Shown here: positions 13,101 to 19,100 of the stretch, piece after piece
Numbering within the stretch: the stretch's first letter is position 1
Layout: each line of letters opens with the position of its first letter
Assembly (NCBI GenBank): GCA_964023275.1
Contig: OZ029917.1
Location: forward strand, 19,902,488-19,966,487
DNA: 64,000 bases
From: Norana najaformis
Lineage: Eukaryota > Annelida > Clitellata > Crassiclitellata > Hormogastridae
Direction: 5' to 3'
Notes under the pieces: generated by a model
What the model was told of the DNA's origin: nothing
Seen by the model: only the letters and a program-made list of their open reading frames with translations
Database searches by the model: none
Made by a program: the position numbers and the translations under genes

Positions 13101-16100
13101 TTTCTTGTTACATGCTGCAGCAAATGCTAGATGTATCCATTCCTCTTATCGGTACCTTCGCTCAACTTTGTAACTGGTGTTCAGTGTATGTTGCACGAGC
13201 TGTGCAGACTGAGCTTCCAACTACCCTAGGTGCAGTTTGCTGATCCTATTCTTGTCAGTCTCTGTCAACTTTGCCCCTCCTTTTGCCCTTTTCCTAAGAG
13301 CATTTTATTCAGAACTCAGAGCTGAATGTTTTCAACTGCCCTATCATGATTACCATCTTTTGCTATCCTGTGACTACTCTTGGCATCAAACCATTTAATC
13401 TTGGCATCACTGGCTCTCTTGAGGCGGGACCTTTCAGGATTTCAACCTTGAATTAAACCCCCAACTCATCCAGTTTCTTAGAGATTTGATTTAATTTAGC
13501 ACCAATGATTAAGGTGGACTCCATGATGCAATTTTTACATGAATGGCCTTTGATTTGATTTCATGGCTGAGACCAAAGACGTCTTTGCTGGCATCAAAAA
13601 CTTGAGACAAAATGGTATGATTGGAAAATAAGTGTATTGCTTCTGATTCAGAAGGTGCTGTAAAGTTGCAGAAGATGCTTTGTGTTGCATCTGAGTCTGC
13701 CTGAAAACAGCTGAAATTTTGTTTTCATCTTGTGGTCTTTTTAGGTTTTAGCCTGGTTTGAAGAGTCTGAAGAACAGGTGACGGCCTTTGTTGAACCCTT
13801 TGTCATCCTTCTCATTCTCATTGCCAATGCCGTGGTTGGAGTTTGGCAGGTAAGTTCAGCCATGCTACAGACACCGCATTTTCTCTGCTTAGTCAGCTAA
13901 GCTCTTGATTATCACTGGACAACAAATTTTTACAAAAGTCATGTTACTGAAATGAAATTAGTCAGTTCTTATCAATTTGTATGTGCTGAACACGAATATG
14001 ACAGTGAAAATGCCGAATTGGCTCTAGTTTTTTTGTAATCTGAAATGAAGTAATTTTATATCGCACAATGCATGCCAATAGTGATACACTTACAGTTAAT
14101 ATTTGTAAAAACCAGGTCATAGACTAGTTCTTAGATTTTTTTGCCTGTCTCTTGTACAGCTGTTCGGGAGCATCTCTGCGGAGTGTCCAGCAGTAGTCAG
14201 CCAACATTGTAGTGGACCATTTTCCCTGGTACCTTTGCTCCATTGTTGCGATATCTTGATGAAAACGTTCGCCATGTTCGTCACTAACCATACCACAGTT
14301 GTCAGGGAAGAAATCCAGATGGGAATGAAGGAAATGCATCTTCAGAGACATATTGCAGCGAAATTTCTGGTACTGCTTGAGCATGTCTTCTACTAGTTCC
14401 TTGTAGTTTTCTGCCCTAACATTCCCCAGAAAGTCTGTAGACACTAGACGAAAAGCATTCCATGCTTGTTTCGCATCACCCTCCAGCAAGTTGTTGAAGC
14501 GGTCATCTTTGAAGAGTTCTCTAATCTGAGGACCCACAAAAACTCCCTCTTTAATCTTTGCTTCGCTGAGTCGAGGGAATTTTTCATGCAGGTATCGGAA
14601 AGCTGGTGAAGTGCGGTCCATGGCTTTCACGAAGTTCTTCACCAAACCTAGTTTGATGTGAAGGGGTGGTAGTAGGATTTTGTGAGCCTCGACCAGAGCT
14701 GGGTGTTGGATATTCTTCTGTCCAACTGCCTTGTTTTGTCTGGGAGTCCATTCCTTCCGCACGTAGTGCAACTCTCTTGCTCGGCTATCCCACTCACACA
14801 AGAAACACATATATTTTGTATATCCTTGCTGCAGTCCCATTAAAATGGCAACTACCTTCAAATCACCACACAGGTGCCATTTGTACCTGTTATAGTCAAT
14901 GGAATGCAGTAGCTGTTTTAGGTTATCGTATGTCTCTTTCATGTGGACAGCATGCGCTAATGGAATAGATGGAAGACGGTTTCCATTGTGCAAAAGCACA
15001 GCCTTAAGACTCAGTGTTGAAGAGTCTACAAAGAGTCTCCATTCTTGTGGGTCATGAGTGATCTGTAAGGCATTCATGAGGTCGTCAATATTGGAACAGA
15101 ATACCAGATTACCTTCCTTCATAAAGAAAGGTTCCAACTGCTGATGGCGCTTTCTATATGAAGTAATTGTGACATCTTCTAGAAGATTCCATTGTCTTGA
15201 TCCTAGCAATTCTGCCTTGTTTTTGGATAAGTCCAAATCACGAACAAGGTCATTTAGTTCTTCCTGTGTTATTCTGTGTGGGGTTGATGATGCACCACAG
15301 TGAAAATCGGGATCACTGCACGCTGACGGACCAGGAGAAGAACATGTCGGCTCACCCTTGTCCTCATCAGATGAATCAAGGAAAATATATTCTGCTGAAG
15401 GTTCTGGAATAGGAAGTCCATCACCATGTGGAACTGGTCTCAATGCTGACGGAATGTTTGGGTAGACTATTGTCGACTTCTTTTGCTTCGTTATTCCACC
15501 GGAAAGAGGAGGAACCAAGCAGAAGTAACAGTCATCTACGTGGTTGCTTTGCTCTCTCCACACCATGGGAACTGCAAACGGCATTGATGGTCTTTTGCCA
15601 TTCAACCACTGTGAAAGCTGTGTTGTACATGTAGCACAGCATATATGCGGGGCCCATGGCTTGTCTTGGTCACCAACCTTGCATTCGAAGTAAGCATGAT
15701 ATGCCTTCTTGACTTGATAAGTGATACTTTTCTTCTGGTTGGCAAATGTCACTTCCCCACAAATGTAACAAAAGTTGTCCACAGTATTTACGCACTTCCG
15801 AGGCATTACTGTTCTGTATTGTATCTAAATGGATAAAGTAATAATAGTTTTATAAAACAGTAACTTAAACTGTCTCGCACAAAGTCTGTAATATTGTAAA
15901 TGCTCAACCGTTCCGACTCGCTTTATATAGTACACTGCTGACGTCATCTTACGTCAGCAGCCGACTGGCTGTAGTTTTACATTGCATCAGAAAATGACGT
16001 AAACAACTGTGCATGATGTGTCCATGATGGGATTATGCAATGAGGTGGAATATTACATCATTCTAGACTTATTTAGGATATTGTCGCAGTCCTACTGCAT

Positions 16101-19100
16101 AAATTTACATGGTGAAACATAAAAAATGAACCATATGAAATATTTTCAAAACGAGAGCCAATAAAAAAATTTTATGGTTATATTCGTGTTCAGCACACCA
16201 AGATGCTACACATTTGGGCCTTTTCCAGTCAGTAACGATTTCTATGTTGACCAGTGTTATTTATATTACTTTTTACCTAGTTATGTTTCTGTCATGCTGA
16301 CTTTGCCTCTGTCTGGGTAGTGACTTTGTCTGTGCCTCTGTTAGTGACCTCGGATGTATCTGTTTTAGTGGGCATTGTCTTTTCTGATATTTTAAATTAC
16401 TGTAATATTTATTTATATTTTGACTTTATATGTTTGAATTAAACTTTCATACGTGGGTTTGTATTATGTCAGCCGAGGATGAGTTTAGAAGCCCTGCAAC
16501 CATTTGCTTCTGGTCTGCCTTTTTGCATCAAAATATTTTGTTTGTCTTGAGACTGTGTGACTGGGGAATTACAGTGGATATTTATAGGGTGCCTTGGCAG
16601 CAGGTCCAAGTGTCAGCACAGAAACCGGTGACCATGGCAACCAATAAACAGTTTGTTTAGAGCCAGAGTCAAAGTCGGTGAGACACGAGGAGGAGAGAGG
16701 GAGCTATAAAGGAAGGGAAACGGATGTAGATAATTGTAAGTGACCTGTGGTGGTTGTTCATTTATGGGTTGTTTTCGTTTGGCGTCTGACAGTTGGTACA
16801 GAGAATGACATGTTAGCTGCTCCACCTCCCAGTGCACAAATGGAAATTCTGACAACCTTATCTAGTCTTGTTTAAAATATTCAGCAGCGAATGTCAGCTG
16901 GCTACAGATGTTGAAGAAGAGAGGATTCTGTGAATTCTATGAACTTTGACAGGTGTCAAGACTTGCTTAGGAAGATAAGTGTGTTTTTAGACCACAGATA
17001 GAGCAATGACTCCATGCAGCATAGCAATAGATTAATAGTGACTGTACAAAATCAGGTTAGAAGATTTTCGCCTCTGTAAGATCAGACACTGAAAATTTTC
17101 CCAGTTTTCTCCATTCCCTTGACAGTTGCAAACTATTTGATTCAATCATGTCTAGTTGGTTTAAGAAGGCACTCATATCTAATATGATGGCCACTGAGGT
17201 TTCTAGAGGTTATATTTCAACAGTGTGATCCATGTCGATATCTTTTGACAGGACTTGGGCTTGAATCCAGGTCACAGAGGTGAGAAGCCAGTGCTTTAGC
17301 CACATGTGTGACCGCTAATTCAATCGTGCTTTTGTGTTGGCAGCTCAGAAGCACCTCTTGGGTGCTTTCCTTGAACAGAAGTGAGCAGTTGGAATTAGGT
17401 TTATTAATGAAACAATGCACTGCTGTGAGCTGAAGCAGAATTAATATCCACCAAGTTACAGTACTGTTGAAGCTGGAAAAATACTTGAGAAGATGTTGCA
17501 AAATAATCACTTTACATTTCAGCAAATTACAACTAAGGTGATTTTAGTTTATAGCAAAGTTAAGAACAATTGAATGTAAAGTTACTGTAGAACAGACTTT
17601 GTCTTTGCAAAAGTATCAACACTGTTCTATGATAGATACACATAGTAGCATCTACAGAGCGATTCTATGACTGCATGGCACCGTAGTAGCGTTTGCATAT
17701 GTGTGTGCATTTATCTAAAGTCCGTGTGTCCTAGAGTTCTTGCTTGACTGGTCATCACTTCAGGGCTTTGTCAGTGCTGTATGCCAGTCTTGTCACAGTC
17801 TTGGCCTGGGTTTAAATTGGCCTCTTTCCCATAATGTATGGAGTTCTCAACCTGTGCTGCAACCTGTATTTAATCTAATAGCATTTAGATAGAAGGTTAC
17901 TTTGATTTTGAATGTAAAACAGATGGATTCTTATGCATTTCTTACAGCAAAGTTGCCTATTTCATGTCTGGCTGATTTTTTCTGAGTAGGAGCGTAATGC
18001 AGAGAGTGCGATTGAGGCTCTCAAGGAGTATGAGCCAGAAATTGCCAAGGTCATCCGAAAGAACCATAAGGGAGTTCAGCGGATCAAGGCACGGGACCTA
18101 GTGCCCGGTGACATTGTTGACATCTCAGGTGTATTCATTCTTCCAGTTGATTGCTATGTCAGATGGAGATGGAGGTTTATCTGGTTATGGGATGCTGGCC
18201 TCATCCAGCTATCCGTCTGTTGCCACAGCTTTTATGAATTAGTTAATAACCAGTACCCCTCCTGTGCAGCCCTTAAGAGCTAGTGGCTTCATATCTCTTT
18301 CAGAACATGTGTACAGAATCATGTATTTTTCATGAAGTTTAATCTAATCTAATCTGAAAACTTCTGTAGTATTACTGAAATATTGTTCAAAGCAAAACTG
18401 GTGTGCATGCCAAAATCCAGGGTAATTTTGGTTATAAACCAGGATGGAAAACCTAGAGGTTATATTTCTTCATACCTCTTTTGGCAAGTTATACTTAACC
18501 TCACTGGACCAACACATTTCTGGAGTTTGACTAAAATTGTGGCTCCATTATGTCATCAGCTTTGTGCAACAGAGAACATCAGAGAAATCTGTGAATTTGA
18601 TTACTCTGTTCAGGACTGGATCCCGGATTTTAAGTTGAGGGAAAGGAACAGTAGGCACAGAGCATAATGGAAAAACAATTAGAAAAAAGTCCTCCAAGTT
18701 TAGGGATTCATTATGACCTTGAATCTGCCAGCGATGTTGAAATCATTAATGATTTTCATGTACATATAATTTTTATAACGTTTTTGGAGCAGAGAATAAG
18801 TATAATTTCCAGATTACTTTTGCCAGGCTGTACTTCCCCACTTTCTTAGGTCACCTTGAAATTAGTGTATGGTTGTTTGAATTTCACCTCATCTTTAGTT
18901 GGGGGACCGTTTGTTGTGTAGTAGATCGTGTGACGTGTTGGCCGTATTCTTTAGCTCAGAAAGGATGATGCAGTTTGGTTATTTACAATTTTATCATCTC
19001 ACTTTCTAAATGGTCCCTTATCTTAGGATCTCTGCAGGCTTTATAAATTTTCTGATTATATTACACGGTTTAATGTTGAAATGTTTTATTTTACACAGTT

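Follow-up and report, generated by a model that had tools for sequence, protein, structure and literature searches.

Introduction

DNA transposons of the EnSpm/CACTA-Mirage-Chapaev-Transib (CMCT) group differ in the length of the target duplication made upon insertion, which is 5 bp for Transib and 4 and 2 bp for Chapaev and Mirage, the latter two having CAC-type ends. RAG1 carries the residues D708, C727 and C730, and RAG end signals come with a 12/23 spacing. Here we analyze a repeat found in a 64,000-nucleotide stretch of the genome of the annelid Norana najaformis (assembly GCA_964023275.1, contig OZ029917.1, positions 19,902,488 to 19,966,487), hereafter the window, and conclude that it is very probably an autonomous, recently active cut-and-paste DNA transposon of CMCT type. 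That it belongs to EnSpm proper we consider somewhat better than an even bet.

Several published descriptions bear on this placement. CACTA elements are characterized by terminal inverted repeats, subterminal repeats and 3-bp duplications, and those of plants have two open reading frames (ORFs) and closely spaced subterminal repeats (sections of PMC8978399); an animal CACTA element with CCC ends and 2-bp duplications has also been described (section of PMC4298943). PMC12730594 gives the CMCT signature, with which the motif positions determined here agree; it files elements as EnSpm by ends such as those found here together with the duplication length, and gives 8 bp as the duplication of Zisupton/KDZ elements. 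We place the Norana element in or beside EnSpm/CACTA because it combines CACTGG...CCAGTG ends, a 3-bp duplication and a D-D-C(2)C-H-H(4)H-E motif.

Results

The genome (608 Mb, 17 contigs, with the window on contig 5) was searched with the DNA of the element and with its protein. The DNA search gave 40 matches, these being the 40 scored of 1163 first-look candidates (an additional row results from the inverted end of one copy matching itself over 50 bp), and the protein search gave 78 matches scored of 6545 candidates. Two samples were drawn: (i) sample 1, the window copy and 39 other DNA matches with 600-bp flanks; and (ii) sample 2, the ends only of 30 copies, namely the first 30 of the 78 protein matches lying outside sample 1. 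Since both samples were chosen by score, older copies are under-represented, and the fractions given below for intactness and age hold for the best-scoring copies only.

The first-pass annotation of the window had described a transposon spanning 13982..16197 and bounded by a perfect 18-bp terminal inverted repeat. The repeat is real: TGTGCTGAACACGAATAT occurs without mismatch in both arms, no other site in the whole window resembles it within at most three mismatches, and none of 100 simulated first-order Markov windows contained a perfect inverted repeat of at least 18 bp with arms 0.3–6 kb apart. Longer inverted repeats in the real window, as far as the longest are concerned, lie between AT microsatellites. 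However, the repeat does not bound the element, as homology among the copies continues for about 69 bp to the left and about 59 bp to the right of the 18-mers. The left flank is shared by all 39 other copies (at least the inner 17 letters) and the right flank by 34 of them (at least the first 12 letters), the remaining five being truncated before the right flank is reached. Where both ends are whole, the shared sequence has CACTGGACAACA as its left limit and TTGACCAGTG as its right limit, and the surrounding flanks differ. These shared flanks rule out the 18-mer as a terminus for the 40 copies, and no target-site duplication is present at its outer edges (13982 and 16197), so that the shorter span had to be abandoned. 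The 18-mer is subterminal, and the true ends are at 13913 and 16256 (Table 1).

Table 1. Coordinates of the element, its parts and the adjoining host exon (positions in the window)
Feature	Position	Strand	Basis or remark
Complete element, CACTGG...CCAGTG, 2344 bp	13913..16256	.	Homology boundary: window copy and 39 flanked copies, ends of 30 more
Left terminal inverted repeat, CACTGGACAACA	13913..13924	+	Left limit of shared sequence
Right terminal inverted repeat, minus-strand reading CACTGGTCAACA, 11/12 match to left	16245..16256	-	Right limit of shared sequence
Left subterminal 18-mer, TGTGCTGAACACGAATAT, start 69 bp inside left end	13982..13999	+	
Right subterminal 18-mer, 59 bp inside right end	16180..16197	-	
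Single intact ORF, 560 aa, putative DDE transposase	14124..15806	-	ATG at 15806, stop at 14124
TTAT before left end (3-bp TTA plus one T, or 4-bp duplication)	13909..13912	+	
TTAT after right end	16257..16260	+	Matches left-side letters
Host exon, 35 aa, then GTAAGT	13745..13849	+	Translation

Both CACTGGACAACA and TTGACCAGTG are exact at the homology boundary in 51 of the 70 copies, while in the other 19 an end is changed, missing or outside the stretch fetched. Of the 40 sample-1 copies, 23 preserve the two ends and the two 18-mers exactly, and in all 23 the distances between ends and 18-mers are identical; the remaining copies of the 40 showed no deviating spacing. No second match to at least 8 letters of the 18-mer exists in the outer 400 bp, leaving one inverted 18-mer per end. 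The subterminal 18-mers are likely transposase-binding sites. The two spacings, 69 and 59 bp, differ by one helical turn.

Exact 3-bp target duplications flank 31 of the 51 two-ended copies (TTA 14, TAA 9, ATA 4, others 4). In sample 1, both ends are exact in 29 of 40 copies, and 16 of these 29 have an exact duplication (TTA 9, ATA 3, TAA 3, TAG 1); mispaired flanks gave 21%, and a count of 16 was reached in none of 5000 permutations. Sample 2 has both ends in 22 of 30 copies and an exact duplication in 15 of the 22 (TAA 6, TTA 5, and ATA, TAG, CAA and TAT once each), a number likewise reached in 0 of 5000 permutations. The preferred target is AT-rich, roughly A-TWA-T. Allowing one or two extra letters between duplication and end accommodates 24 of the 29 sample-1 copies, a count from which we claim nothing because the mispaired control reaches 43%. 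On contig 16, two oppositely oriented copies, L104/L105 at 1.54 Mb and L106/L107 at 1.67 Mb, have the same adjoining flanks. This suggests an inverted segmental duplication or an assembly effect, and L104 and L106, both among the 22 of sample 2, are probably one insertion that was duplicated.

The uninterrupted ORF of 560 codons, already reported in the first-pass annotation, was confirmed and lies on the minus strand; the protein is 560–563 aa long. By eye, on a single sequence, the motif letters are D261, D315, C334-x2-C337, H383, H491-x4-H496 and E510, with C(2)C and H(4)H located between D315 and E510. Consistent with the earlier statement that the protein lacks the obvious signatures of several named transposase families, no significant match was obtained in the Pfam-A, NCBIfam and PHROGs profiles, nor among PDB sequences. 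The sub-threshold results were treated as chance: (i) Retrotrans_gag with E 0.11, under its cut-off; (ii) a PHROG with E 0.3 over 13 residues; and (iii) an adenylate cyclase as the best PDB chain, with E 1.7. Searching the genome itself with PF02992 (Transposase_21) found nothing, a result that says nothing on absence because 0 of 14 control genomes gave a match either. Relatives were not found in viral contigs; in prokaryote genome contigs, 11 pattern matches were obtained of which none was confirmed, and another search returned 0. A literature search for the peptide CFLCEWDSR retrieved no paper containing it, which is weak evidence, and the same applies to our not recognizing, among the titles and abstract openings listed, any publication that names the element, with Repbase and most subscription literature lying outside the search.

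Many copies share these ends in differing flanks, as expected of a transposon with terminal inverted repeats, and the genome searches agree with the element being multi-copy rather than single-copy. DNA and protein matches together cover all 17 contigs, and the 78 protein matches span 559–560 of the 560 residues. An ORF of at least 555 aa starting from MPRKC is present in 35 of the 40 sample-1 copies, and two of these 35 (L036 and L038) have a different tail. The proposal of recent activity is borne out, because the 36 copies longer than 2300 letters differ by only 0.48% on average (range 0–1.26%) and 75 of the 78 protein matches are stop-free. L011 is the nearest neighbor of 21 of the 36 copies, a pattern like that of a burst from a single source. 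One subgroup, identical except for one change, consists of the window copy, L009 (at a distance of 33 kb and in other flanks) and L010 (contig 1).

Four pairs of the 40 DNA matches lie within 50 kb of each other where 0.13 are expected, three of the four belonging to one cluster of three copies, which suggests short hops. Contig 2 holds 12 of the 40 DNA-matched copies against 3.4 expected by length (binomial 8e-5, uncorrected for 17 contigs), and a 15-kb stretch near 12.12 Mb contains three of them. In a comparison of 33 young copies, changes amount to 0.10–0.21% per site in the ORF (14127–15806) versus 0.46% outside it; indel-prone AT runs may explain the lower rate in the ORF.

A subset of copies is truncated, and many of these have a long target duplication. 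Ten of the 40 sample-1 copies lack part of an end. Six of them (L013, L019, L026, L029, L045 and L046) show a direct duplication of 15–78 bp of target sequence that extends from the break to the insertion point; the joins share 0–5 nt, and L013 is cut at both element ends. L034 and L042 are short of 3 and 6 bp, with a normal TTA on either side, and L044 and L047 are truncated without duplication, the join of L044 repeating 15 element letters. Two sample-2 copies, L084 and L088, are likewise truncated and carry duplications of about 30 and 39 bp. L090, whose truncation adjoins a tandem repeat, was not counted, and L102 is trimmed by 4 bp without duplication. Three others (L066, L074 and L078) have no left end in the stretch fetched, and L080 has a left-end mismatch. 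Altogether, truncation together with a duplication of 15–78 bp at the break was found in 8 of 70 copies.

The element lies in an intron of a plus-strand SERCA-type calcium ATPase gene, 63 bp past the splice donor. The upstream exon, which we take to encode part of a SERCA-type calcium ATPase, has no Pfam match, and downstream stretches match the Pfam models E1-E2_ATPase and Cation_ATPase_C. Elsewhere in the window, 54190–54330 is a perfect tandem duplication with a 70-bp unit.

Discussion

The element resembles EnSpm/CACTA in its CAC...GTG ends, 3-bp target duplication, subterminal repeat and the by-eye DDE motif with C(2)C and H(4)H. It differs in having CACTGG rather than CACTA, one 18-mer per end rather than an array, one long ORF and no Pfam Transposase_21 match. 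With Transib and RAG1 it shares a D-to-C distance of 19, C-x2-C and H-x4-H before the catalytic E, and end signals that are spaced differently on the two sides (69 and 59 bp, about one helical turn apart) and recall the 12/23 pattern; however, its duplications are 3 bp and not 5 bp, and no PDB chain is significantly matched by the protein. The Chapaev and Mirage (CMC) families have a comparable zinc motif and CAC-type ends, but their duplications of 4 and 2 bp are unlike the 3 bp observed here. Zisupton/KDZ was considered for a DDE-like protein without a Pfam match. Against its 8-bp duplications, none of the 29 two-ended sample-1 copies shares 8 letters, and the longest match in sample 2 is 6 letters, in a TAA repeat, so that KDZ was rejected. 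Membership in EnSpm/CACTA is supported by the ends and the duplication, not by a sequence profile.

Several points weigh against this assignment. At these ends, 20 of the 51 two-ended copies show no exact 3-bp duplication; three of the 20 have a longer exact match (the window copy TTAT, L009 TAATT, L068 ATAA). The motif residues were picked out by eye on one sequence, with no alignment to relatives, and neither PF02992 nor any other Pfam-A transposase model matches the protein at E values up to 10. In addition, a single-sequence structure model has a mean predicted local distance difference test (pLDDT) score of 35.8, too poor to judge the fold, and both samples are biased toward the best-scoring copies.

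A competing placement, which we hold to be less likely, is a separate unnamed CMCT lineage that has CAC..GTG ends and 3-bp duplications and stands beside EnSpm, Chapaev, Mirage, Transib, Plavaka, ESTA and Lanisha. It would account for the protein matching no Pfam CACTA model, for the single 18-mer without an array in the outer 400 bp of each end, and for the single long ORF as opposed to the two that PMC8978399 describes for plant CACTA elements. Yet ends and duplication length match those by which PMC12730594 assigns elements to EnSpm.

Less probable, though worth stating, is a more specific proposal: that the element represents a distinct CMCT/RAG-like animal lineage outside the family libraries searched, still mobile, with the 69- and 59-bp distances acting as paired end signals and the broken copies being intermediates of one-ended integration.

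We read the truncated copies as insertions in which one element end was joined as usual and the other failed; the free 3' end of the target would then have been extended over 15–78 nt by displacement synthesis and end-joined to the broken element. A rival account, to which we give a little under even chances, is that the gap left by excision at a heterozygous site was repaired from two templates, one end copying the sister element and the other the empty homologue. The outcome would be identical (left flank - D - element fragment - D - right flank), and gap repair is the usual way in which such elements gain copies. Repair tracts are usually longer than the 15–78 bp seen here, however, and the microhomology of 0–5 nt at the joins is compatible with one-ended insertion and gap repair alike. 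Among the titles and abstract openings listed in a literature search, none describes such truncation plus duplication for a DNA transposon, which is weak evidence.

Very unlikely is a smaller unit of 13982–16197, ending in the 18-bp repeat, that inserted once and without target duplication into a larger repeat which was later amplified. In its favor, the 18-bp repeat has no mismatch and exceeds in length the 12-letter terminal repeat, in which 11 of 12 letters match, but all 40 flanked copies have the outer sequence on at least one side, in none of the 40 are the 18-mers bounded by unrelated DNA on both sides, and the 3-bp duplications adjoin the outer and not the inner ends. Equally improbable is a family of domesticated host genes whose inverted repeats arose by chance: the stop-free state of most protein matches would fit, but we reject it on the dozens of near-identical copies with common termini and short target duplications in differing flanks, and changes among young copies show no third-codon-position excess (18, 38 and 31 at positions 1, 2 and 3).

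Returning to a CMCT-type element in or beside EnSpm/CACTA, transposition would most likely proceed as follows. The N-terminal cysteine-rich region would probably bind the subterminal 18-mers, and a predicted RNase-H-like core (D261, D315, E510) carrying a putative zinc-binding C(2)C/H(4)H insertion would cut at CACTGG/CCAGTG and join the element ends to AT-rich targets across a 3-bp stagger. Copies would be gained as donor gaps are repaired, and hops would often be short.

This is a real, young and intact transposon. The suggestion in the first-pass annotation that it represents an undescribed system is not supported, as ends, 3-bp duplication and motif point to a position in or beside EnSpm/CACTA; it is an addition to that known type of element, and the system itself is not an unknown one. 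A protein that matched nothing in the libraries searched thereby becomes a likely transposase from the clade in which RAG1 originated, and the many intact, near-identical copies make the element a candidate for a naturally active animal transposon of CACTA type. The locus also cautions that a perfect internal inverted repeat can pass for a transposon end. Furthermore, the broken copies bearing long target duplications could open failed integration in this clade to testing.

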